Origin: Bdellovibrio svalbardensis
Lineage (GTDB): Bacteria > Bdellovibrionota > Bdellovibrionia > Bdellovibrionales > Bdellovibrionaceae
Direction: 5' to 3'
DNA length: 64,000 nt
Assembly: GCF_029531655.1 (NCBI RefSeq)
Contig: NZ_JANRMI010000001.1
Location: 124,001-188,000 of the forward strand
Below, piece by piece: positions 15,953 to 59,247 of this stretch. Position numbers and translations under genes: made by a program. A model generated the notes under the pieces. The model was given only the letters and a program-made list of their open reading frames with translations, had not been told where the DNA came from and did no database searches. How positions within the stretch are numbered: position 1 is the first letter of the stretch; every line of letters begins with the position of its first letter.

Positions 15953-16660
15953 GTGAAAACCAGCTCAATTGTTGAAATTCAGGACTTTAGAGGGTTCTCC
16001 CCCGAGGCTTTTCGCTTCCTGAGGTCTCTAAAAAGGAATAATCGCCGCAATTGGTTTCAGCCCCGCAAAGAGACCTATGACGAACTTTTACGCCTCCCCA
16101 TGATGGCTTTGATTTGCGAAATTGGTGAAGAAGCTCGAAAATTTGCACCTGAAATTCGCTTCGATCCAAAACATGCGGTCTTGCGCGTTTATCGCGATAC
16201 TCGGTTTAGCAAAGACAAGACGCCCTACAAAACAAATATCGCTGCCAGTTTGCCGTTTGGAACTTATGGAAAGAATATGGACAGCCCTGGGCTCTATCTT
16301 CATATAGAACCTGGAGAAATTTTTGTCGGAGGTGGGTTGTATATGCCGAACTCCCAACAGCTTCGTAAAATACGCGAAGCTATTGTTCAACATTCAGATT
16401 CATTTTTGGAAATCATCGAAGATCGTAACTTCAAAAAACATTTCGGAGATATTTCCGGTGAACGTCTGAAGACAAATCCACGCGGCATCTCTCCCGATCA
16501 CGAGATGATCGACTATCTTCGCCTCAAACAGTTCTTCGTCTCAAAAACCTTCGACGATTCCATCGCCCTCAAAAAAGATTTCCCAAAGAAAGTCGCAAAA
16601 GAATTCGAACTTATGATGCCTCTTCTACGCTGGCTCAATAAATCCCAAAGCCTCTGGTAA
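15953..16660 (+). CDS. DUF2461 (TIGR02453) family protein
   Basis: Conserved bacterial family of unknown function; 235 residues, typical. Characteristic segments are FRGFSPEAFRFLRSLKRNN near residue 9, RNWFQPRKETYDELL, VLRVYRDTRFSKDKTPYKTN near residue 80 and GGGLYMPNSQQLRKIREAI near 125. Start is GTG at 15953 with GGAG 10 nt upstream; no ATG fits better. Single gene transcribed away from rpmE, ending at a bidirectional terminator shared with rho. Confidence 0.9.
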   Translation: MKTSSIVEIQDFRGFSPEAFRFLRSLKRNNRRNWFQPRKETYDELLRLPMMALICEIGEEARKFAPEIRFDPKHAVLRVYRDTRFSKDKTPYKTNIAASLPFGTYGKNMDSPGLYLHIEPGEIFVGGGLYMPNSQQLRKIREAIVQHSDSFLEIIEDRNFKKHFGDISGERLKTNPRGISPDHEMIDYLRLKQFFVSKTFDDSIALKKDFPKKVAKEFELMMPLLRWLNKSQSLW

Positions 16661-16729
16661 AGAAGTACGCCGGTCCCACCAAACGTGGGCTCGAGCAACT
16701 TTTGAGGCTCCAGACATTATCGCCAAAAT

Positions 16730-16760
16730 AAAAAAGGGAGTCTTAAGACTCCCTTTTTTT
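16730..16760. terminator. Bidirectional terminator between the DUF2461 gene and rho
   Basis: A palindrome with stem GGGAGTC / GACTCCC and central TTAA (16736-16753), with A-run before and T-run after. The stops of the two convergent genes lie on either side. Confidence 0.9.
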
Positions 16761-16781
16761 GTTCTTACATTTTAAATCAGC

Positions 16782-18617
16782 TTAGTTTCCCGGGCCCGAC
16801 ATCGCTTTCAAGAAGTCCGTGTTTGACTTCGTGTTGCCCACTTTGTCGATCAAGAATTCCATCGCATCGATGACGTTCATCGGAGCCAGGACTTTTCTGA
16901 GGATCCACAAGCGGTTCAAGTCAGCGCGGTCGATAAGAAGATCTTCTTTACGAGTTCCTGATTTGTTGATGTCCATGCAAGGGAAGATACGTTTTTCCAT
17001 AAGCTTACGATCCAAGTGGATCTCGGCATTACCAGTACCTTTAAACTCCTCGAAGATAACCTCATCCATACGAGAACCTGTGTCGATCAATGCTGTTGCG
17101 ATGATCGTCAAAGATCCGCCCTCTTCGATATTACGAGCAGCACCGAAGAAACGTTTTGGTTTGTGAAGAGCATTTGAGTCCACACCACCTGACAAGATTT
17201 TTCCAGAAGGAGGAACAACCGTATTGTAAGCACGAGCAAGACGAGTGATAGAATCCAGCAAGATGACCACGTCATGTTTGTGTTCAACCAAACGTTTTGC
17301 TTTTTCAATAACCATCTCTGCAACTTGAACGTGGCGAGTTGGTGGCTCATCGAATGTTGACGATACAACTTCACCTTTTACGGTACGTTGCATGTCAGTC
17401 ACCTCTTCCGGACGTTCATCGATCAAAAGAACGATCAATTTTACTTCCGGATGATTTGTCGTGATCGCATTGGCAATTTGTTGCATCAAAACTGTTTTAC
17501 CAGTTCTTGGTGGGGCAACGATCAAGGCACGTTGACCTTTTCCAAGTGGCGCCATCAAATCAACCACACGTGTTGTGTAGTCACCTGGATTGTGCTCAAG
17601 CTTCAAACGCTCATTTGGATAAAGCGGCGTCAAGTTGTCGAAAAGGATTTTATCTTTACCTTTTTCAGTCGTCTCGAAGTTTAGAGAATCAACTTTCAAA
17701 AGTGCAAAATAGCGTTCGCCTTCTTTTGGAGGACGAACAGTTCCCGTCACAGTATCACCCGTTCTTAAACCGAAACGGCGAATTTGTGATGGAGAAACGT
17801 AAATATCATCCGGACCTGGAAGATAGTTAAAGTCTGGAGAACGCAAGAAACCGTAACCATCTGGCAGGATTTCAAGAACACCAGAACCATAAATGTCCTG
17901 ACCAAGTTTTGCAGCACGTTTCAAAATTTCGAAAATCATATCCTGACGGCGAAGACCGGCAGCGTTTTCAATTTTTAGTTTAGTTGCAAGCTCAGTAAGT
18001 TGCGTGATGTTTTTTGATTTCAAATCCTTTGATGAAAGCCATGTTTTCTCTTCATCAGTTAATTGAATATCTGAAACGTCTACGTCTTGAGCCTGTTGAG
18101 GCATATTTGAATGTTCATCACCGCTTGGTTGAGAATCTTCATTGCTTCTTCCGTAAGGACGGAAATCACGACGTTGACCGCCACCGCCGCCATGACGATC
18201 ACCGCGATCGCCTCTGTCACCACGGTCACCCCGATCTCCACGATCGTTTCTGTCGTTGCGATCATGACGATGTCCACCGCCGCCGCCACGGTCATTTCTA
18301 TCTCTGTTATCACGATTGCTTGGACGGAAATCGCGACGAGGTTGTTGGTGTTGTGGACGATCTTGTCTTGTATTTTCGCGAGGCTCTTGTTGTGGAGCTT
18401 GGCTTTGAGTTGCAGCGGCTGGTGCGCCTTCTGCTTTAGCTTCAGTTGGGGCAGAAGTTTGAGGAGCCGCTACGGGCGCTTCTGCTGCAGGTTTTGGAGC
18501 GGGTGCTGGTTTTTCAGCCGGGGCCGCTTGTTGTGTTGAAGCTTCTTCAGTCGCTTTGGTTGTGCGAGTGCGCTTTTTTGGTGCTTCAACGCCGGGTTGA
18601 TCTTTTGGTTCAGACAA
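16782..18617 (-). CDS. rho: Transcription termination factor Rho with long disordered N-terminus
   Basis: Hexameric RNA helicase that terminates transcription. The core from about residue 186 equals a normal Rho in length. It has an RNA-binding domain ([21 protein letters not shown]), a P-loop reading [12 protein letters not shown] instead of the common APPKAGKT, Walker [16 protein letters not shown], and the Q/R-loop region [15 protein letters not shown]. Residues 1-185 are extra: first Ala/Pro/Lys/Glu-rich, then Arg/Asp/Gly repeats such as [15 protein letters not shown]. The start is TTG (18617) with AAGGAG 7 nt upstream. Monocistronic by position, with a long upstream region. Confidence 0.97.
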
Positions 18618-19238
18618 ACTGGAACTCCTTGTGGGATATAATAAGAGAGAAAGATCGGTACATAATGAAGTTTGATCCGACTGGACCCAAACTGTGTGCT
18701 TGCCCTAACTTTCCTAGAAATTGGGATATCTTGTCAATCGAAAATCTTTTTGGCCTCCGCAGGGCCTTTCTTGCAATGGATTGATTTAATGTAAGTTGCT
18801 GTAAATATTAACTAATTTTCAACTAAACAAATGGTCGCCAAGTATTAAGTTTGTGATTTATTCCTTCTAGGACACTTAAAATGGGACTCGCCAACAATGA
18901 ATTTCAAGTTTGAAACCTAAACAACTATTGATTCCCTTGGCACTGGCGCTACTTTTTTATAGAAGATCGAAAGAGGCAAAAACTTCGACAGATTTCTAAA
19001 CTTTCTGATCCCAAAGAGAGCCGCAGCTCTTCAGAAACACCTCTATCATGTGCTCGGTCTAGTTGATATTCAGTTTAAACAATTTCCCGCTATTTCAACA
19101 CGTTAAGTATCGATTCAAGACGTCCGGTTTTTCCGGGTGCTATCATTTTTTGCAAAATTACCTCTAACAGGTATTAATTTTTGCCAAGCAATACCGAAAC
19201 GTAATTATCGCACACTTATAAGCACAAGGAGATCAAAA
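18618..19238. other. Gene-free region upstream of rho and the PilZ gene
   Basis: About 620 bp between two divergent starts. On the minus strand a TTGACA hexamer lies at 18737-18732 but no good -10 box follows at 16-18 nt. A small AGAGC/GCTCT hairpin is near 19017-19030. Translation of all frames gives no ORF with a ribosome binding site. A long rho leader would be consistent with the autoregulation known for rho in other bacteria, but no specific structure is identified. Confidence 0.4.
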
Positions 19239-45570: not shown

Positions 45571-46410
45571 TTAAGGGCGAAAGCCCAATTTTATCAGGGC
45601 AGAATCGATAAACTCATGCTGCGAGTTGATTTTGGTATAAACACCATTCGAGTTGCAATTGTCATCGCCCAAGCCACGACTGATCACTCCCCACAAGAAC
45701 AAGGAACCTTTGATCGTCACGAAGGCTGGGCCGCCAGAGTCTCCATGACAAGCGCCCTTTCCATTTGATTGATCCAAGATAATCTCGGTGTCGCCAAATG
45801 ACTGGCCCAGGATCACATCAACTTTACGCAATTGATTGTCAGTGGCCTTAGTGATGCCGTCATTCAAACCATAGCCAGCCAATGTCACGGTCAACTTCGG
45901 CTTTAAAAGCGAATCATTAGGAAGCAATCGAGCCGCGCGATAACCTTGTGGGAAAGATCCTGGATACTTTAATAATGCAATGTCATTTGAATCTTCGCCC
46001 ATAGGTCCACTTTGACCAAACTTGGGATGAACCACTTGATCAGTCACAAGGCGAATATCGCTGTCTGAAAGGTTGTCCAGATCAGAAGTGAACACAACAT
46101 ACATGCGAGTATCATAGTGCTTATCCGAAGGTGGCACACAGTGCGCGGCCGTAAGAATAACTCCCGAGCGAAGTAAAGAGCCCGTGCAGAGATATTGAGA
46201 CTCAACATGATTGCGATCGAAGCTGGATATTAAAATCGCAACAGTAGTTTTACTGATCAGATCTGAAGAGATTACTTTTGCCCCGCCAACAATAGCGGAA
46301 CTGATCAATTTTGGATTTACTTCCCGCGATGATGGAGAACCCGAACAGGCCGACAACATAAACAAGCAAGTAGATACTGCTAGCGATGTTAAGACCTTGT
46401 TAAAACTCAT
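45571..46410 (-). CDS. Trypsin-like (S1) serine protease lipoprotein
   Basis: 279 residues. Lipobox LSAC (Cys22 from this start). Catalytic triad: His in VILTAAHC, Asp in DSNDIALLKYP and Ser in ACHGDSGGPAFV, with S1-type strands SAIVGGAKV near the maturation site. The Asp/Gly-rich pocket suggests trypsin-like specificity, but this is not certain. The start at 46410 is supported by GGGGGA about 6 nt upstream; an ATG 30 nt further up is not. Envelope-anchored, so likely active in the periplasm or at the surface, plausible for a predator. Confidence 0.92.
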   Translation of the reverse strand: MSFNKVLTSLAVSTCLFMLSACSGSPSSREVNPKLISSAIVGGAKVISSDLISKTTVAILISSFDRNHVESQYLCTGSLLRSGVILTAAHCVPPSDKHYDTRMYVVFTSDLDNLSDSDIRLVTDQVVHPKFGQSGPMGEDSNDIALLKYPGSFPQGYRAARLLPNDSLLKPKLTVTLAGYGLNDGITKATDNQLRKVDVILGQSFGDTEIILDQSNGKGACHGDSGGPAFVTIKGSLFLWGVISRGLGDDNCNSNGVYTKINSQHEFIDSALIKLGFRP

Positions 46411-46486
46411 GGATTTCCCCCGGGAGAAAACCTTAAACACTTAAATCAGAGTGGGGGCAATTGAAAAAAGACATCCTAACAAAATT

Positions 46487-50180: not shown

Positions 50181-50517
50181 ATCACCCGAAAGGGTTAGGA
50201 AATTGGTTTAAGAGTATATAAATACTTTCTGTTGTTATTTAACAATGCGACACCATATATAAGAATGGTTTCTGGTTTAATCTGAGGAATATCTCTATTT
50301 TTACTTATACTTAGTGAAAAAATCGATAAGTGCTCCACACTGCTCCGCTTTACCTGCCAAATTACAATAAAAAAATATTTCGTCATTTTTGTGTTAAATA
50401 CTCGTCAATTACAGTATCTCTCTGCCTCATTACAAAAAATGAACCCGGGCGCTCGAGAAAAATTGTACGTACCAGCTTAAATCGACCGCCCAACCAAGGT
50501 AACGGAGAAATTAGAAT
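50181..50517. other. AT-rich region upstream of the secreted-protein operon
   Basis: About 337 bp without a gene, clearly more AT-rich than its surroundings. It contains an AGTAT-ATAA-ATACT palindrome (50213-50226) and several AT-rich stretches, but no promoter that I can call with confidence. It must hold the promoter of the operon that starts at 50518. Confidence 0.4.
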
Positions 50518-51054
50518 ATGAAACTAAAATCCCTCATGGCGATTTTGGCAGCCCTTTGCGTAAATTCAACCGCATTTGCCGATGAGTTCGATGGCGGCAG
50601 CGGTGAGTTCGATCCAAAACCACTTCCAAACTACACTGAAGCAGAAATTCAAAAGAAAATCGCTCAAGAGATGGAAATCGCATGCTCTGGCAACTTGTGC
50701 CGCATTGTTGGCACTGACAGCTCTGGCGAAGGCTGGACTGTTTCTTTCAACGTTGGATACGGCAACGGCAACGGCAACAGCGGAACTTCTATCTACATCG
50801 GTGATAAATATAACAACAATCCAAACGACACGACTTGGAACGCTGGCATCACTGTCACTTACAAAAACTACCATTGCCAATCAAATTTGCGCGTGACTCC
50901 AGCGGTGTACCGCTTCGTCAACACGTACATGTACAACATGGTTAACAGCGACGGATCTACGAAAAGAAATTTCTCTCCTGCAGATCAGACGGTAATTTTG
51001 TTCTACACAACAATGTTGAACAAAGTTGATTCTTGCGCAAACGCGGCTAAATAG
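50518..51054 (+). CDS. Secreted protein, first gene of the unknown operon
   Basis: 178 residues; family not recognised. Signal peptide with cleavage at AFA-D (residue 21). The mature protein is Asn/Gly-rich in the middle (GYGNGNGNSGTSIYIGDKYNNN) with beta-like strands and four cysteines (residues 57, 62, 120 and 174, counted approximately) that could form two disulfides. GGAG lies 11 nt before the ATG. The next gene starts 24 bp later, and seven genes in a row run on this strand. Confidence 0.78.
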   Translation: MKLKSLMAILAALCVNSTAFADEFDGGSGEFDPKPLPNYTEAEIQKKIAQEMEIACSGNLCRIVGTDSSGEGWTVSFNVGYGNGNGNSGTSIYIGDKYNNNPNDTTWNAGITVTYKNYHCQSNLRVTPAVYRFVNTYMYNMVNSDGSTKRNFSPADQTVILFYTTMLNKVDSCANAAK

Positions 51055-51078
51055 ATTTCAAACGACGGGAATATTTTC

Positions 51079-53835
51079 ATGTTTTCCAAATATGCACTCC
51101 TGAATTTCTGGGTTTCTGCATCAACACTGCTGTTCTCGTCGAACTCTATCGCCCAGGTTACAACATCCTCTCAGATGAACAACCTGCGCATAACCAATCG
51201 TGCACAATGTGCGATTGATTCTGATTATCCAACTGCTTCTGCTTTCTTGATCCTAGATGGCTATAACGCCGGCAAGCTGGGCAACTCGTTAGCTAAAAAC
51301 ATCGGTCTTGACGAGGCACAAACCTCACAAGACACGATGAAAGAGTTCCGCCTCTCCGTCAGTCATCTTACTTTAACGATCATCAACAAGATCATGACGG
51401 GCAAACTGCCTCTCTTGCCGATGAATTTGAAAGTGGCGAAACTTTACAATTATACTTCTTTGGCAAATTCATGCGGTGATAAAGTTTATTGCGCAGAACT
51501 ACAAAACCATTTGGCAAAAATCTGGGCGTTATCTGAAAACTCCGCGATTACCTCTGTCAGCCCCGAATGGAAAAAGATCGACAACTTCTCTGCGTCCAAC
51601 TTCATGTCTCAACAAGGCAGTCGTCGCGTCGGATGTTACTACTTAAAAAGGTTTTCACCACTTCAGGGGCAACTTCACAACACGACACTTGATACAGCCT
51701 CTTTGCAGGAAATGGCTGTTGCTTTCCTGGAACAGGAAAAATACATCACCAGCTGCTACGACACCGATGCATCTTTGGACTCTCGCAACGCCGCTCTTCA
51801 AATTGATATCAAAACAGGGGAGCTCGACAGTTGGAATGCAAAAGGTTTTGATTTCTGGAATAGCGTAAAAATTTATCTTTCATGGGCTTGGCGCAATACC
51901 GACGTTGTGAACCACATGAGCCCGCGCTTTGGTGAAGTTTTTAAATCTGTGGCTCTTGAAGAGTCTATGATGCTGATTCCAAACGGATGCAAGAGCATCA
52001 CCAAGCCTTCTTGCGACAGTGAGCATTTGGCTCTTAATAACCTTCGTGAACTTGCTAAACAAGACACAAAAGATTCTGGCTTTAATACGGAAGTTCCACA
52101 AAGCCCTGACAAAACAATGCTTGAGCGCGGTGCTCGCGCAGTGAATAACGACTTCCTCAATACCAAAGGGTATATGTCGGCCGGGGAGTGGGTTGAAAAC
52201 TTCCGCAAAAATTTCGTGCAAACTCGCGGTTCTGCTAAGAATCGCCTGCAAAGTTCCGTTCAATTCATGAATATCCTGGCGGACACGATGACTGCCGATA
52301 CTCTGGTTGAGTTCGTTAAGCCAATTGCTCTTGCCTCAAAACTTTCATCACTTCAGCGGGACGAGCTTTACTATCTTTGCACCGAAGTTCGCCTTGCCGG
52401 CGATAAACGTCTTGATTTTATGAAATCAGATATTGATGGTATCGCTGGGCTTAAGAACATGAATAAGGCCTTGGATAGTTCAAAACGCTCAATTGAGCAA
52501 TTTGTCGCTTACTTTGACGTTGTCTCGAAAGGAATTCTTCCTTACTGCGATCAGCTCGAAAAAACCAATATCTGGCAGGCAGCGGGATACACTGTAAATA
52601 AATCTGGTTTTAAATCTTGGGCGAAAGAAGTTTTAAGTACTCCGACGGAAGAAACTCCTTCAACTTTCCAACCGCAAATTTACGGCGCACCACTTTTAGT
52701 GTGGAATTCTTCATTGGGTGCTCAAGAAGGAAATGTTATTTGTGCTTCTGGTGTTGACTGTGCTCGGGGCGTTATCAAGGCCATGGTAGACCTTTATGCA
52801 GTCGCTCAATATGCTGATGCTTTCCTGCCAATCTCATCAACGGCCGCTTCTCCTGACGTCTTCAATCCTTATTCTGAATTGAAAGCCTGCAAAATCTACG
52901 ATCCTTGGTATCAGTCAAAGCGAGCGAATCGCGTATTCATGGCAGACCTCGCCAGCACAGCCTTGTTTGGCTGGAACTTCATGCCCATTTATATCGACGC
53001 GGACTATACGCCTCCAAAAGTTACTTCGTTCCAACGTTTGCTTAAAGATGGCGTGATTAAGTTTGATGCGAATATCGAAAAGTCGAAGATGGTGGCCTCC
53101 CTCCTTGCTGACTTCGGCCCCCTAACTGGTGCTCCATGTGCAGTTTCGATTGCACCAAATGCAAAGACCTTTAACTTCCTCGCGTTCGACGGAATTTCTG
53201 TCAACTATTGCGACAGCAAATCCACGGGAGGCGCTATTGCCAATGGAGCAAATAATATCTCGACCAATCCAGAGAAGACTCGCTCTTACTGTGGTGGCTG
53301 TTCTATCAATTTTGTGGGTGTTGGATCTGCCGCGTCTGTGACCAGCGCTGCAACTTCATTCAATCCTATTAAAATGGGTGTCTATCTTTTCAGAGCGATT
53401 TACCGTTTTGTTAATGCCAAGAAAGACCCCGTCAATGTGCCGATGTCTTACAATGTTGATTTGGCAAAGGTTGCGGATGCTTATCGCCGCTACGGCACCA
53501 TTCCAAAAGATTGCGTAAATCAATTAGGTCAAGGATTGAAATGCTTCCAAGACATCTGCTCTGCAAAGGCCGCAGATTTCTTTGAACGCCTCACTGGCGG
53601 AAAAGTTACTACGATTTCGATTCAAGATGCCAACGGCCACAATGACAACGGTTTCTCTTCCAACTCATACCAAAGAAGAGCCTGGGTGAAGTCAGATCTT
53701 TGCACAGGCGAAACTGTATTCAATTTCTCATGTAGAGAAAATGGGTCGGGATTCTATGTTGGTGGCACAGACGGAAATATGTGGGGAGCAAGTGGCTCCT
53801 GCAAAAAATATATTAGAGAAGGGCGCTGGAAATAA
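51079..53835 (+). CDS. Large secreted Cys-rich protein, unknown family
   Basis: 918 residues. Signal peptide with cleavage near SIA-Q (residue 25). The mature part is mainly helical in its first 550 residues with scattered Cys. In the C-terminal third Cys is dense: APCAVSIAPNAK, VNYCDSKS, SYCGGCSINFVG, PKDCVNQ, LKCFQDICSAK, SDLCTGETVFNFSCREN, SGSCKKYIREG. A hydrophobic stretch near residue 760 (MGVYLFRAIYRFV) is short of a clear membrane helix. No catalytic motif recognised. GGGAA precedes the ATG; its stop overlaps the next ATG (TAATG). Confidence 0.78.
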   Translation: MFSKYALLNFWVSASTLLFSSNSIAQVTTSSQMNNLRITNRAQCAIDSDYPTASAFLILDGYNAGKLGNSLAKNIGLDEAQTSQDTMKEFRLSVSHLTLTIINKIMTGKLPLLPMNLKVAKLYNYTSLANSCGDKVYCAELQNHLAKIWALSENSAITSVSPEWKKIDNFSASNFMSQQGSRRVGCYYLKRFSPLQGQLHNTTLDTASLQEMAVAFLEQEKYITSCYDTDASLDSRNAALQIDIKTGELDSWNAKGFDFWNSVKIYLSWAWRNTDVVNHMSPRFGEVFKSVALEESMMLIPNGCKSITKPSCDSEHLALNNLRELAKQDTKDSGFNTEVPQSPDKTMLERGARAVNNDFLNTKGYMSAGEWVENFRKNFVQTRGSAKNRLQSSVQFMNILADTMTADTLVEFVKPIALASKLSSLQRDELYYLCTEVRLAGDKRLDFMKSDIDGIAGLKNMNKALDSSKRSIEQFVAYFDVVSKGILPYCDQLEKTNIWQAAGYTVNKSGFKSWAKEVLSTPTEETPSTFQPQIYGAPLLVWNSSLGAQEGNVICASGVDCARGVIKAMVDLYAVAQYADAFLPISSTAASPDVFNPYSELKACKIYDPWYQSKRANRVFMADLASTALFGWNFMPIYIDADYTPPKVTSFQRLLKDGVIKFDANIEKSKMVASLLADFGPLTGAPCAVSIAPNAKTFNFLAFDGISVNYCDSKSTGGAIANGANNISTNPEKTRSYCGGCSINFVGVGSAASVTSAATSFNPIKMGVYLFRAIYRFVNAKKDPVNVPMSYNVDLAKVADAYRRYGTIPKDCVNQLGQGLKCFQDICSAKAADFFERLTGGKVTTISIQDANGHNDNGFSSNSYQRRAWVKSDLCTGETVFNFSCRENGSGFYVGGTDGNMWGASGSCKKYIREGRWK

Positions 53836-54434
53836 TGATCTCTAAAGCTATTCTTGCAGCTGCTATTATTCTGGTTTCTTCTGTTTCATTGGCTTTTTCA
53901 ATCAACAGCCGTTATGCCATCAATGAAAAAGGTGCCTACATCAAAGAAACTCAAGTTCTTTGTGATATGAATGAGGCCGAATATTGTCAGGTACTCTGCA
54001 AACAAGATAACGAGTGTCGCAGAACTGAACCTTATTGCTTAAATTGCGCCGGAACAACCTCCACTGTTTTGAGAACTCTGTTTAGTCAAATTTCTCAAAA
54101 TTATGTTCCCACTCAAACGGAAATTCCAACATCTGCGATTGTTCGATATTTAGCTACTACGAATTATATCTTGATCGGCGCTAAAAGCGTTTACAACTAC
54201 TACAAGCCACTCAACTCTGGAGAGTTCCTAAGTAATCTTCAGGCGCTATGCCCGACGCCTACGGATGATCCTCTTTTGGCAATTAAACTTTCACCGGTGC
54301 AAGAACCGGAAAAAATGAGCTTCATCCTGTGTAAAAGTGCGGATGGAAGAACTCAAGCCTTCGATGTCAGTCCTCGCCAGCCAGGCTTAGGCAATCAAGT
54401 GCTGGGTTCACAAATTAAACTAAGTCTTCAATAG
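53835..54434 (+). CDS. Small secreted Cys-rich protein, unknown family
   Basis: 199 residues with a signal peptide (cleavage near LAF-S, residue 21). Residues 42-75 hold eight cysteines in a compact knot-like cluster (VLCDMNEAEYCQVLC, NECRRTEPYCLNCAG), with later Cys in ALCPTP and ILCKSAD. No family recognised. Its ATG overlaps the stop of the 918-residue gene by one base, so the two are translationally coupled and may form one complex. Confidence 0.75.
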   Translation: MISKAILAAAIILVSSVSLAFSINSRYAINEKGAYIKETQVLCDMNEAEYCQVLCKQDNECRRTEPYCLNCAGTTSTVLRTLFSQISQNYVPTQTEIPTSAIVRYLATTNYILIGAKSVYNYYKPLNSGEFLSNLQALCPTPTDDPLLAIKLSPVQEPEKMSFILCKSADGRTQAFDVSPRQPGLGNQVLGSQIKLSLQ

Positions 54435-54481
54435 GTACGTATTTAATAACAAAACCCCAAAAGGGAAATTAAGGAGAATCA

Positions 54482-55534
54482 ATGAAAAAAATTATGATGA
54501 TGCTCGCGGCAGTTACTATGTTCGCAGCAGCTCAAAATGCGAACGCGATTTCTTTGCGTTTCAAATTCAAAACTTTCAGCTCTGGTCCAAGCATGTACGC
54601 GTGTAACGCGGGTATCATGACTCCGGCTGAAACTAAAAAGGTTTGTTACTTCGAAGGTACTACAAACACTTGTACACCAACTACATGTGATAACACACAA
54701 GCAGTTTGTGACACTCGTTGCGTTTGTACTGGTGCTTCAGGTGGCGACTACTTGATGAACTACGGTAAAGTAGAATATCAAGACTGGAAAGACAATGGTG
54801 ACACTTCTTCTGCTACAGGAGCTGGTTCTACGACTTTCTCTTCTGCTTCACCTAACCAAAACAACTGGACACAAGCTTATGATGATTCAACAGCTTGGGG
54901 CCGTACAATCAAAAATCTTTCTTTCAACTTGGGTTCTGAACTTTATGGCGCGAAATATTTCGTAGACATCTGCTTCCGTGGTCCTCAAATTGAGTACTTC
55001 GAAGACGGTGTTGTAGCTTCTTTCAACTTGAAAGCTCAAGCTAACGCGACTGATTTCTTGGCAACTGGTGTAAATGGTGGCGACAACAATCGTGATGGTT
55101 TGGTTATCCCTGGAACAGTTGACGGCAAAAAATACACTGAACTTGCTGGTTTGAAAGTTCAAGCTTTCGTAGTTTGCGATAAGCAAGGCGAAGGTACTTA
55201 CAAATATGCTCGCAACAACTCTGGTTCTTACAACACAACTATCAACGAAGCGATCTTCGCAGGATTCAACTCTGCAGGCATTCCTTCAACTGGTGGCGAC
55301 TTGTTCGTAGCTGGCTCTCAAGCAACTCTTGGAACTGGTAACGTTTCATTGGTTGATGGCTGGGTAAACCAAAACAACACTCACACTCCACGTTTCTGTA
55401 AAGTTCGTTATGTATTCACAGAATCAAACGCTGCGACTGCAACTCCTAACTTCAGAAAATGGCAACGTCACGGTGCTGAAATGTGTACTTTCACTGATAT
55501 CGAAGAAGGCGCAACTTCTGAAGGTCTTAACTAG
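54482..55534 (+). CDS. Secreted Cys-rich protein, paralogue of the 57172 product
   Basis: 350 residues. Signal peptide cleaved at ANA-I (residue 22). The mature part has 11 cysteines, seven in the first 55 residues (MYACNAG, KVCYF, NTCTPTTCDN, AVCDTRCVC). It shares four segments in the same order with the 57172 product: CNAGI, CVC-T/S, LYGAKYFVDICFRGP and PRFCKVRYVF. Codons are strongly biased to GCT, AAC, ACT and CGT types, suggesting high expression. AAGGAG precedes the ATG at ideal spacing. A major surface or secreted component is inferred. Confidence 0.8.
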   Translation: MKKIMMMLAAVTMFAAAQNANAISLRFKFKTFSSGPSMYACNAGIMTPAETKKVCYFEGTTNTCTPTTCDNTQAVCDTRCVCTGASGGDYLMNYGKVEYQDWKDNGDTSSATGAGSTTFSSASPNQNNWTQAYDDSTAWGRTIKNLSFNLGSELYGAKYFVDICFRGPQIEYFEDGVVASFNLKAQANATDFLATGVNGGDNNRDGLVIPGTVDGKKYTELAGLKVQAFVVCDKQGEGTYKYARNNSGSYNTTINEAIFAGFNSAGIPSTGGDLFVAGSQATLGTGNVSLVDGWVNQNNTHTPRFCKVRYVFTESNAATATPNFRKWQRHGAEMCTFTDIEEGATSEGLN

Positions 55535-55546
55535 TTAGTACATCCT

Positions 55547-55565
55547 ACTCCGGCGAAGCCGGAGT
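55547..55565 (+). repeat. ACTCCGGC/GCCGGAGT hairpin inside the secreted-protein operon
   Basis: ACTCCGGC (55547-55554), loop GAA, GCCGGAGT (55558-55565), 12 bp after the 54482 gene stop and 23 bp before the next start. It could reduce expression of the downstream genes or protect the upstream mRNA. Confidence 0.7.
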
Positions 55566-55588
55566 GAGAACAGGCAAGGAGTTGAAAT

Positions 55589-57172
55589 ATGAAGAACACA
55601 AATTTTAATAAAAGCGTGATCGGAGTTCTCACACTTCTTGCCGTCGTCTTTCATGGCAGCGGGGCTATTGCAGGTTGCAAAATGTCCCGCGACCCTAAAA
55701 TGAACTATTTTATCTCGTATGAAAATAAAGCACTCGGAATGTTTTCTGAAGCTGCTGAGAAGGCTCAAGCTCCTTCTGTTATTGAACGCTGCCAGCTCGA
55801 TTCTGGTAAATTTTTAATGCTTTCACTGGGGGTACGTCGTCCCACTTTGAATTCTGATGTCGCCGACGTGTCATTTGATGGCCAGCTCATCGATACGAAA
55901 TGTTCTATCGAAAATTCTTTTTTTAAAGAGCAACCGGACTACTCTGAGCGCAGTAAAATTATTGAACAGCAGCACAAGGTTTTGCGCACTTGTACTTATA
56001 TGCAAATCTTCGATCTCGATAATAAACCTATCGAGTTTAAACCTGAACAAAGCCATTGCAAAATCACTCGCATGCCGACAGGTTCCCTGAAGGCAGAAGG
56101 TGATTTTTGCTTCGTTCGTATCCGTCCCATCAATCGCTTCGCCGTTTCCACAGTTGTAAAAGATGAGTGCCGCGATGTGAATTTCCTTAAAGCCAACAAT
56201 ATTGCTCCTCAAGATGTTGAGGCAGCGTTAAATGCCTACGTCGTTGGCGACGACAGCGGTCTAAGTACCGAGGTTGATCCTATCGGTTCAACAAAAACTC
56301 GCCTCTACATTGCTCCACACAGCAAGATGCTCAATCTTTCAGATGATTTTGGTGCGGATACGCCACGTTTTCCAACTGAATTCAATGCTGATGTTCATAT
56401 GGGAGAATTGAAAATTCGCGGCTCAAAAGAGACCTTCACCGTTGATATGTCACTTTTGGTGAACAATCGTTCCCAAAAAAGCTGCTATCAAGGAATGTGT
56501 GCAAGTCCAAGTGACTTCGATGTTCCCGTGGTGGGACAGGTTGAACTTTTTGAAGTTCAAAAGGGTGGTAAAGAAAACTACATCGATGCCTGGTGGCATG
56601 CGGGTCTTGCAAATCCAAATTGGCAAGGCCTCATGAAAAGTGGTCCCCACGTTCTGAATGAAACTGAACTCAAACCCGGAACTCACTATCGCATGACTGT
56701 GACATTTGTAGATCCTGCGGAAGACTTTACATTGTTCATCAAAGACATCCAGCAGATGACCATTGATCTTAAAGGACTTCAAGGGACTGCGGGCCTTGAT
56801 TCGATAGCTCCGATCATGGCGCTAACCTCTCTTGTAGGTCTTCCTCCGATGGAAAACCTTCCCTCTATGTCTTCGCCAAATATGGAGGTCGAGATGGAGC
56901 GGGTGTTGAAGACACTGCAAAAACTTGGGCAAGATCGCCAATGGCCTTCTTATTACAATGATGTTTGCAATTCAAAACGCGCCTCATGCATCAAGGCTGG
57001 AAAGTCGAAGTTCTACTCAAAACTAACTCTCGATTTCACGATGGGTGATTTTAATATTGAAACGGGTAGCTGGGATCTCAACAGCTACACGGTGAAACGG
57101 GAATCTCCGGTATTTGGCAATTATACAGTTAATCCGAAGGCATTGCCGACTGTTTCCTGCGAGGTTCAGTAA
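55589..57172 (+). CDS. Exported protein, possible lipoprotein, unknown family
   Basis: 527 residues. Hydrophobic signal (VIGVLTLLAVVF) ending in AIAGC, where Cys30 fits a lipobox (I-A-G-C), so it may be lipid-anchored; cleavage at AIA-G by signal peptidase I is the alternative. The mature part is mostly beta-like with Cys pairs (SHCKITRMP, DFCFVRI, DECRDVN, KSCYQGMCAS, DVCNSKRASCIKAG, VSCEVQ at the C-terminus). Residues about 220-380 read like a beta-sandwich. No family recognised. The stop overlaps the next ATG (TAATG). Confidence 0.75.
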   Translation: MKNTNFNKSVIGVLTLLAVVFHGSGAIAGCKMSRDPKMNYFISYENKALGMFSEAAEKAQAPSVIERCQLDSGKFLMLSLGVRRPTLNSDVADVSFDGQLIDTKCSIENSFFKEQPDYSERSKIIEQQHKVLRTCTYMQIFDLDNKPIEFKPEQSHCKITRMPTGSLKAEGDFCFVRIRPINRFAVSTVVKDECRDVNFLKANNIAPQDVEAALNAYVVGDDSGLSTEVDPIGSTKTRLYIAPHSKMLNLSDDFGADTPRFPTEFNADVHMGELKIRGSKETFTVDMSLLVNNRSQKSCYQGMCASPSDFDVPVVGQVELFEVQKGGKENYIDAWWHAGLANPNWQGLMKSGPHVLNETELKPGTHYRMTVTFVDPAEDFTLFIKDIQQMTIDLKGLQGTAGLDSIAPIMALTSLVGLPPMENLPSMSSPNMEVEMERVLKTLQKLGQDRQWPSYYNDVCNSKRASCIKAGKSKFYSKLTLDFTMGDFNIETGSWDLNSYTVKRESPVFGNYTVNPKALPTVSCEVQ

Positions 57173-58035
57173 TGAAACTCCTCATTTCTCTTTTTGCCTT
57201 TCTTCCTGCCATGTCTTTTGCCACCGTCGTTATTAGACCCTCTGTGAATGAGGGCTTCTTTGTCTGCAATGCTGGCATCGCTCACAAAGTCTCAACTGGA
57301 ACTTCTTGTGTGAACCAACTCACAGGCCTTGCATGCACGAGCAGCGACGAAAGTTCTTGTGTCTGTTCTGATTCGACGGCCGGCGATGATTCACTTGCTG
57401 CAAGCTGGGAAGATCTGACTGTTGCAGCTTCAAGCTCCATGCGCTTCCGCTCCAATATTATTGCTTCAAGTGCATCCGGTGATTTCACAAGTTTGTTTAC
57501 AGATCTAAATGCCTGGAGCAATCAAGTTAATGAAGTTCAAATTAACAGTTCGTCAGAAACTTATGGCACAAAGTACTTTATCGACTTTTGCTACCAAGGT
57601 CCCATTGAGAACATCGTTAAAAAGAAAGACAACTCTGAAGGAATCTATACCCTTACAGCTGGGATCAATGCGCAGAATTTAGCGAATGGTTCATCTTATG
57701 CTGCTGATTCAAATCTTGCGATGAATCTGGCGGTCAATTGCGATCTTCGCAATGTCGGGAAGAATAAAGATCCCCGTAACTCCAATCAGTTTGCACCCGA
57801 AGGTAGCATCCTTGAAAGCGACGTGGACTTCACAACCACTGGATATCCTCGAGCGAATTCTTTAAGTCTTTCTCAAAGAATTAACGGGCAGGTTAAGCTT
57901 GTTCCCAGATTCTGCGTGGTCCGTGCCACTTTCGCAGAAATGGCTAACACCACTTCTGTTAAAGTACGTCCCAACAATGAAACTCCAACTGAATTTACAA
58001 TTGATCTTGATATCACCAATGGTAGTGCGTTTTAA
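57172..58035 (+). CDS. Secreted Cys-rich protein, paralogue of the 54482 product
   Basis: 287 residues, signal peptide cleaved at SFA-T (residue 17). Shares with the 54482 product CNAGI (near residue 27), SCVCSD, ETYGTKYFIDFCYQGP (near 130), AVNCDLRN and PRFCVVRATFAE near the C-terminus, in the same order. Shorter, mainly because of less sequence in the N-terminal Cys region and middle. Eight cysteines in the mature part. Codon use is ordinary, unlike the paralogue. ATG overlaps the previous stop; the next gene starts 3 bp after its stop. Confidence 0.78.
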   Translation: MKLLISLFAFLPAMSFATVVIRPSVNEGFFVCNAGIAHKVSTGTSCVNQLTGLACTSSDESSCVCSDSTAGDDSLAASWEDLTVAASSSMRFRSNIIASSASGDFTSLFTDLNAWSNQVNEVQINSSSETYGTKYFIDFCYQGPIENIVKKKDNSEGIYTLTAGINAQNLANGSSYAADSNLAMNLAVNCDLRNVGKNKDPRNSNQFAPEGSILESDVDFTTTGYPRANSLSLSQRINGQVKLVPRFCVVRATFAEMANTTSVKVRPNNETPTEFTIDLDITNGSAF

Positions 58036-58038
58036 CTT

Positions 58039-59247
58039 ATGAAGCTTCTTGTTCTCGTTTCTTTTCTAATCAGCACCACCGCGAGCGCCTCAGTATGGAA
58101 AGCAAATCGCAGCTGGACAGAACAAGACGAAGTTAAATTTTCGCTGTTCTTGCAAAGCGAGTGGGCGGCAGATGTTTTTGCCAATCCTCAATCTGATTTC
58201 TACGGAATAAAGACTGATTGCGCGGATGCCGTTTATGCGGCCCGTATTGTGTTTTCTGCACGGGAAGGCCTGCCCGTAAAGTTTTCTGACGTCACAAAAT
58301 CGGGAAGCTATTTAACCCAAGAAATGTCCCGTTGGGATGGGCTTTCCCCTTTGGAGCGCATCAAAAGATTTATTTCTTATACAGGAGATCTTGTCTCCAC
58401 CTTGACCTTAGAATCTGACACTTATCCGGTCGCCATCAATAAAGACTTCTTTCGCCCGGGTGTTATTTTCTTAAGCCCAATTCTTTCAGATTTTGAAAAG
58501 CGCGCGACGGGATTCCACGGTGGGCATGCAGAATACGTAAAAAGGATTGATGATATCGGATTTATCGAAGCCATCGCTTCGACTTCACCAAAGGCCGTAA
58601 GAACACTCAGTCTTAATAAAAATCCATATATGGCAGCCTTAGTGACACGCGGTGGATTTCGCAGATGGCGCCAGCCTCAACAGTTCGGCGTCAATGTCGA
58701 GAATCTTACGGGCTATAGTTTAGAACAGTTCAATATTGCTGACTGGGCACCTCTAAAGCTCATTACTCGTAGACAAATATACCAATGGCATGAAGCCATT
58801 CGCAGAACTCTTAGAACACGCGCTCCCTCATTTGATGAGCGTGTGGATATCGTTGTGGATAGCATCTGCAGCCTGCTCACCACTCGTGCTGAACTGGTTC
58901 AACAGGGCTGGAGTGAAGTGACAAAAAATGGGGGTCGATGTCTTTCGGCAGATCTCGCTGATCAATACTCTACGGATAGCCGGGACCAGAGAATTCGCGG
59001 ATCTTATTTCCAATTGGGTGATCTTTATGATTGGAAGAAACGAGAAGACGGGGACGACATCCTGGGATCCGTCGAGGACGCTCAAAGTAAGTTGGAGAAA
59101 TGCCGTATTCAATATTGGCCGGGACGTTTTATGAACACCTGGGAGATCTATCCACGCGTCAGAGACGGCCTGCTTGAGTCATCAGCAAGCTATGCCCCAG
59201 CAGTGCGCTGGGGATTTCGTCCCAAAGGGACCAGAGACTGCCGTTAA
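58039..59247 (+). CDS. Exported protein with a weak NlpC/P60-like Cys-His signature
   Basis: 402 residues. Signal peptide cleaved at ASA-S (residue 18). The segment TDCADAVYAARIVFSAREGLPVKF (near residue 55) resembles the nucleophile region of NlpC/P60-type cysteine peptidases (DCxxxV..), and GFHGGHAEYVKRID (near residue 160) could supply the His, with RPGVIFLSP before it. Residues 210-400 are unassigned, with further Cys. This assignment is a resemblance only. No ribosome binding site; expected to be translated by coupling, 3 bp after the previous stop. Last gene of the operon. Confidence 0.7.
   Translation: MKLLVLVSFLISTTASASVWKANRSWTEQDEVKFSLFLQSEWAADVFANPQSDFYGIKTDCADAVYAARIVFSAREGLPVKFSDVTKSGSYLTQEMSRWDGLSPLERIKRFISYTGDLVSTLTLESDTYPVAINKDFFRPGVIFLSPILSDFEKRATGFHGGHAEYVKRIDDIGFIEAIASTSPKAVRTLSLNKNPYMAALVTRGGFRRWRQPQQFGVNVENLTGYSLEQFNIADWAPLKLITRRQIYQWHEAIRRTLRTRAPSFDERVDIVVDSICSLLTTRAELVQQGWSEVTKNGGRCLSADLADQYSTDSRDQRIRGSYFQLGDLYDWKKREDGDDILGSVEDAQSKLEKCRIQYWPGRFMNTWEIYPRVRDGLLESSASYAPAVRWGFRPKGTRDCR

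Follow-up and report, generated by a model that had tools for sequence, protein, structure and literature searches.

Analysis of a seven-gene operon of Bdellovibrio svalbardensis points to a group of exported proteins, six or seven in number, rich in disulfides and not described before, in Bdellovibrio-related predators, whose pattern would suit a cell-surface recognition device. Judged from DNA alignments and gene trees, the first three genes (op1, op2, and op3) are conserved while op4, op5, op6, and sometimes op7 are replaced as a cassette. Much about how Bdellovibrio recognizes its prey is still to be explained, and the operon looks genetically as a further device of this kind might be expected to look: its products are exported and disulfide rich, it is restricted to the phylum in these searches, and one half of it is traded between strains.

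Gene layout, export signals, and cysteine content

The window (the whole 64,000-nucleotide stretch of DNA that was analyzed) encodes seven plus-strand genes between positions 50518 and 59247. The open reading frames and the gaps between them (+24, -1, +47, +54, -1, and +3) are exactly those given in the preliminary description.

50181..50517, plus strand: leader 5' of op1, gene-free, 337 nt, presumed promoter region
50518..51054, plus strand: op1, 178 aa, exported, base module, mature part with 4 Cys, no family
51079..53835, plus strand: op2, 918 aa, exported, base module, 22 Cys
53835..54434, plus strand: op3, 199 aa, exported, base module, 8 Cys
54482..55534, plus strand: op4, 350 aa, exported, predicted beta-sandwich, exchangeable cassette
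55589..57172, plus strand: op5, 527 aa, exported, 12 Cys, exchangeable cassette
57172..58035, plus strand: op6, 287 aa, exported, op4 paralogue, exchangeable cassette
58039..59247, plus strand: op7, 402 aa, exported, putative papain-like peptidase or amidase, optional accessory

The attack-phase FliA motif (TTAAG-N16-CCGATA) scores no better than shuffles 5' of op1 in 22 loci, and the G+C content of the operon shows no deviation.

All seven products begin with an export signal, as had been claimed. In each, the N-terminus is hydrophobic and carries positive charge, and a plausible signal peptidase I site comes after it, as called here by a simple in-house rule and not by SignalP. None of them has a further strongly hydrophobic segment. 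The Cys richness reported for most mature parts is seen in op1 to op6 (2.6, 2.5, 4.6, 3.4, 2.4, and 3.1%, respectively) and not in op7 (1.3%), the median across the 48 window ORFs of at least 150 aa being 0.98%. The Cys positions of op2 are mostly invariant (52 sequences), and DsbA-like genes are present in the genome. The suggestion that one product, op5, might be lipidated is doubtful, as the lipobox is not conserved and the IAGC box of the window is replaced in homologues by FAC, SAAC, or SGGC. All 51 op5 sequences keep Cys30, which is among the 12 Cys of the protein, and this suits a disulfide better than lipidation. Neither a lipobox nor a beta-barrel nor a cell-wall anchor was recognized in the operon products.

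A weak peptidase-like signature had been noticed in the last product and is real, with C61 and H163 invariant in 12 homologues. Like NlpC/P60 and papain-like peptidases, op7 has the Cys/His dyad of the class, its D-C-A-D motif and the His both being invariant, and we regard it as a putative papain-like (DC...H) peptidase or amidase. It reaches no Pfam family at threshold; its scores with DUF4846 (E-value, 0.00016 to 0.0016; 18 to 22 bits) lie below the cut-off of 37 bits.

Family, profile, and structure searches

The earlier statement that the products belong to no recognized family agrees with our searches, in which none of the seven matched Pfam, NCBIfam, PHROGs, or PADLOC at any credible score (0/7 for the PADLOC anti-phage defense models). 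Their homologues have no family match either, save the sub-threshold likeness to DUF4846 in some op7 members. A sequence search of the solved structures in the PDB likewise returned no match for any of the seven; a hit of op3 to a PAS sequence spans only 25 residues and was judged spurious. The two members described as paralogous are op4 and op6, which are related at a profile-profile (hhalign) probability of 99.95% (E-value, 2e-37), and no other pair among the seven products is related over its full length.

Strong matches to secretion systems or pili already known, which would have argued against an undescribed apparatus, were looked for and not found, nine F-plasmid transfer proteins included. 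The F-type conjugation proteins TraN, TraU, TraH, TraW, TrbC, and TraF are likewise a set of exported proteins, with 22 Cys in TraN and 11 in TraU, whereas no gene for an ATPase, a pilin, or an inner-membrane component was recognized in this operon. Homology to F-plasmid conjugation was rejected because all seven products, compared with the nine F proteins, gave hhalign probabilities of at most 4.5% for each pair and no Pfam match. No recurrent neighbor gene of any kind adjoins the operon in the compared neighborhoods, which are partly annotated and cover the operon flanks. The AF2 model of op2, built with 19 homologues, is of low confidence (pLDDT, 62.6; pTM, 0.40), and this poor fold has no PDB match at an E-value of ≤0.001.

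Distribution, gene order, and co-inheritance

Homologues of op2 occur in 17 of the 24 genomes of the genus, at one to three copies each, and in 75 of 369 genomes of the phylum, where they represent 30 of 182 genera. Both op2 and op5 are absent from the other 7 of the 24 genus genomes, so the operon is not needed for life in the genus. Among the 23 loci of the genus, 18 are complete and carry op1 to op6 in one order, 4 are cut by contig ends, and 1 is an orphan op2 in the strain kdesi. The recurrence of both order and close spacing in the 18 complete loci excludes chance. In most loci op1 adjoins op2, and the start of op3 abuts or overlaps the stop of op2. The op1 proteins align at 63 to 81% identity across the genus. 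The op7 gene is found in one group of loci and is absent from those of a second type, referred to here as B-type.

For the core and REARRANGEMENT, 30 more distant loci carry the same families in other orders. These include op4-op5-op4'-op1-op2-op3 in the f12 family, a divergent arrangement of op5-op4 and op1-op2-op3, and another of op7-op5-op4-op1 and op2-op3. Among the 75 genomes of the phylum that hold op2, many have op1 to op5 linked, in several rearranged orders. Gene content across these loci indicates that the lasting core is op1 to op5, with op6 as an extra op4-like copy and op7 as an optional member. The pairwise protein distances of op1 to op5 are correlated (r, 0.54 to 0.92), and none of 300 permutations gave values as high, a result that speaks for a single functional unit more strongly than closeness within one genome can. 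Two distant loci (L101 and L102) have a trypsin-like protease gene inside the operon, between op3 and op4. In lineages with an extra gene at this place, op3 is 423 to 471 aa long (L101:6421-7689, L102:10584-11996, and L092:7188-8546).

A pattern scan of named genomes, based on an alignment, retrieved 35 loci, all by title from Bdellovibrionota-type lineages except one titled only "Proteobacteria bacterium"; the two patterns used miss many known members, and restriction to the phylum is therefore tentative. The named matches include B. bacteriovorus kdesi, Halobacteriovorax marinus, Bacteriovorax sp. BSW11_IV, and many Bacteriovoracaceae MAGs.

Collectively, the lack of matches, the conserved order, and the co-inheritance bear out the preliminary description of an exported, Cys-rich operon of no known family that probably encodes an undescribed envelope or secreted apparatus. 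The role in predation or attachment that it also proposed is conjectural; matches fall among relatives of Bdellovibrio, Halobacteriovorax, and Bacteriovorax, but 7 of the 24 genus genomes do without op2 and op5. That description missed the five-family core, the optional nature of op7, the gain or loss of the operon as a block, and the op4-op6 cassette.

Exchange of the op4-op6 cassette and gain or loss of the operon

Sharp boundaries are seen at the B-type loci of three genomes that we take to be those of strains HD100, Tiberius, and SSB. Between HD100 and either of the other two, the DNA is ∼82% alike until 45 codons into op4. In the ∼3.5 kb that follow, no more than two or three short stretches can be aligned, and 74 nt past op6 the sequences become similar again (86.6%). 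The corresponding protein identities between HD100 and Tiberius are 94, 93, 75, 56, 43, and 40% for op1 to op6, respectively. In the op2 tree the HD100 B-type copy groups with those of Tiberius and SSB (support, 100/100), while in the op5 tree it falls in the G011-G021 group (100/96), apart from Tiberius, SSB, and kdesi (100/100).

A second case is found in the A-type loci of kdesi and HD100, whose op1 and op2 proteins are 93 and ∼74% alike and whose op2 copies are joined in the op2 tree (96/99), while the kdesi op5 and op7 find their closest matches among the window-type versions (identities of 41 and 60%, respectively). The kdesi A-type op5 branch is long, and its exact place in the tree is unsure. 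Estimates of dN/dS for those pairs in which dS is estimable range from 0.006 to 0.32, indicating purifying selection. The sharp boundaries, together with dN/dS values well below 1, argue for exchange rather than fast drift. Op1-op3 are thus conserved while op4-op5-op6, in some loci with op7, are replaced jointly, as judged from these two events. In the majority of close pairs, op6 has diverged more than any other member. Op1 to op3 also diverge between lineages, so the "fixed" nature of the base is relative.

The operon as a whole has been gained or lost as a block, since its insertion site is empty in most genomes of the genus. The left flank consists of genes for ribosomal protein S6, a DUF2232 protein, an FHA protein, and an alpha/beta hydrolase, which in most of the 24 genomes directly adjoin DUF4383 and/or subtilase genes, and the operon is absent there. 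The site is also empty in G013, the genome with the copy closest to that of the window, which sits elsewhere. Neither phage nor plasmid carriage was found in searches of viral contigs and plasmids, and there is no tRNA at the site. The insertion site of the window holds in kdesi a lone but intact op2 (922 aa, 57% identity; L025:8150-10915), where the other six genes have left no trace. This strain has two further copies elsewhere, a B-type with op1 to op6 and an A-type with op1 to op7.

Predicted fold of op4

The AF2 model of op4, built with 49 homologues, is all-beta (pLDDT, 83.1; pTM, 0.82). The prediction is a beta-sandwich that weakly resembles sugar-binding domains and the TasA fiber subunit. 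The best Foldseek match is the TasA fiber 8aur (E-value, 8e-3; prob, 0.69), which is below significance, and a structural aligner gives a Z-score of 4.8 for the same pair over 163 residues (rmsd, 5.2). That aligner ranks sugar-binding beta-sandwiches at the top (sialidases, Fbs1, SGBP-B, and the FedF lectin domain), with a Z-score of 5.9 at most, below the level separating kin, as values under 8 are common among unrelated beta-sandwiches. Nothing significant was found for op4 in a viral fold library.

Ala22 at the cleavage site of op4 is invariant, and the alternating strand that follows ([IVL]-S-[LV]-x-[FY]-x-F-x-[VTI]-x-S-S-G) is conserved, with the first eleven mature residues left unpaired in the monomer model; op6 retains a shorter version of the strand. 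The donor strand of TasA is formed by the mature N-terminal residues 28 to 38 (PMC9674648). As modeled, op4 would resemble the subunit of the TasA/camelysin fibers of Bacillus, which is likewise exported, folds as a beta-sandwich, and has a conserved strand at its mature N-terminus, a likeness that we take as a lead. In contrast to TasA, op4 has no sequence relation to that family (no match to Pfam camelysin/TasA among 32 op4 homologues at an E-value of ≤0.05) and no significant fold score, and it belongs to a Gram-negative host, is disulfide rich, and has five unrelated partner proteins. Carbohydrate-binding modules (sialidase N-terminal domains, CBM61, and SGBP-B) are similar to the op4 model in overall beta-sandwich arrangement (Z-scores of 4.9 to 5.9 over ∼120 to 140 residues), whereas op4 is only 6 to 10% identical to them, has no enzyme attached, contains eleven Cys, and is unmatched in half of its length.

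Interpretation and alternative explanations

Our preferred reading, which we judge to have an even chance of being right, is that the operon encodes a Sec-exported, disulfide-stabilized assembly outside the inner membrane, with a fixed base of op1, op2, and op3 and an exchangeable outer part of op4, op5, op6, and sometimes the peptidase op7. The outer part would most likely be exposed on the cell surface, where it may make variable contacts under changing selection, for example with prey surface glycans or bdellophages. Mutual binding of the products, their outer-surface location, and a binding specificity set by the cassette are features that we infer, and the exchange could also mark secreted antagonists or antigens instead of recognition parts. 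More tentatively, the products may form a phylum-specific surface appendage unrelated to pili, MAT fibers, and secretion systems, in which a mobile op4-op6 recognition cassette on the op1-op3 base is traded as a block to change the prey or bdellophage engaged. If true, the appendage would be a candidate for one of the surface fibers or complexes of undetermined composition on these cells. The boundary between the fixed and exchangeable genes leads to immediately testable predictions.

The closest parallel in logic is the mosaic adhesive trimer (MAT) fibers of Bdellovibrio, in which the shaft is kept and the tip varied and one of which has been shown to bind glycans (PMC10769870). Within the searches made, the operon products show no relation to MAT proteins: none was matched in sequence searches of our PDB copy, which cover MAT entries if present there, or in fold searches with op4 and the low-confidence op2 model. 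MATs are single-gene trimeric beta-prism fibers, whereas here six or seven different operon-encoded proteins are exchanged gene-wise as a block.

The fold of op4 bears on two other explanations. It is possible, if doubtful, that op4 and op6 are extracellular fiber subunits joined by TasA-like donor-strand exchange. In that case op6 would be present in minor amount or as a cap, and the base would consist of op1-op3, either alone or together with op5. The rank of 8aur among the Foldseek matches and the conserved op4 strand, unpaired as a donor strand should be, speak for such fibers, and non-pilus surface fibers have been seen on Bdellovibrio (PMC10482364); however, both fold scores are below significance, sugar-binding domains score equal or better, the Pfam camelysin/TasA search was negative, and the strand of op6 is shorter. 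The resemblance to sugar-binding beta-sandwiches would instead fit proteins that are released into the prey (bdelloplast) and there bind glycans or take part in digestion, such as a carbohydrate-capturing complex with a peptidase, and a peptidase is often present in the operon (op7 or the trypsin-like protein of L101 and L102), all members of which are exported. We consider this explanation unlikely, since op1 to op6 contain no catalytic family, the Z-scores are of a size common among unrelated beta-sandwiches, and nutrient-capture enzymes are, to our knowledge, not usually swapped as cassettes.

The patchy distribution of the operon, with its one to three copies per genome, block exchange, and the orphan op2 of kdesi, could also reflect predator-predator antagonism, kin recognition, or a phage-related system with the cassette as its polymorphic part. 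This seems improbable, as no toxin, immunity, or defense family was found, no recurrent small immunity-like gene lies beside the cassette, and the operon is absent from the viral contigs and plasmids searched. Co-inheritance and block transfer, in turn, need no physical contact, and kdesi retains an intact op2 alone, so the genes might encode co-regulated exported proteins that share no physical assembly and are kept together by block gain and loss. We find this rather unlikely: op1-op5 stay together through rearrangement to divergent orders across distant families and op4-op5-op6 are swapped jointly, not singly, which suggests matched parts.

Neighboring genes and the HD100 context

The A-type copy of HD100 (708.5-717.1 kb) adjoins genes for an FHA-GGDEF protein and an ECF sigma factor, which by content and position are taken to be DgcB (Bd0742), required for predation (PMC6561027), and the ECF sigma factor Bd0743 (PMC3464611). 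With these putative dgcB and sigma factor genes beside the operon, genetics should be feasible in HD100, the standard laboratory strain. No mention was found in the papers searched of the probable HD100 tags Bd0746-Bd0755, estimated from position. The dgcB-like gene, the sigma factor gene, and a gene for a 159-aa protein converge on the A-type operon (L041:578-3090; HD100 705.1-707.6 kb), and the 159-aa protein has a hydrophobic segment and is a possible anti-sigma factor.

A 1,051-aa collagen-repeat protein (L033:12302-15454) is encoded directly 5' of the B-type operon of HD100 (2835.5-2843.1 kb). Two close strains have genes of 941 and 973 aa at this position, and the length and the repeat alignment differ by strain. 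In the window, a trypsin-family protease gene (45571-46440) is located ∼4 kb 5' of the operon, and related trypsin genes are found 3' of the B-type operon in L031, L033, and L034. Genes with doubled CXXCH heme-binding motifs, resembling multiheme cytochromes, flank the operon in two distant genomes, at L102:4905-7126 and 16225-18875 and at L093:12102-12713.
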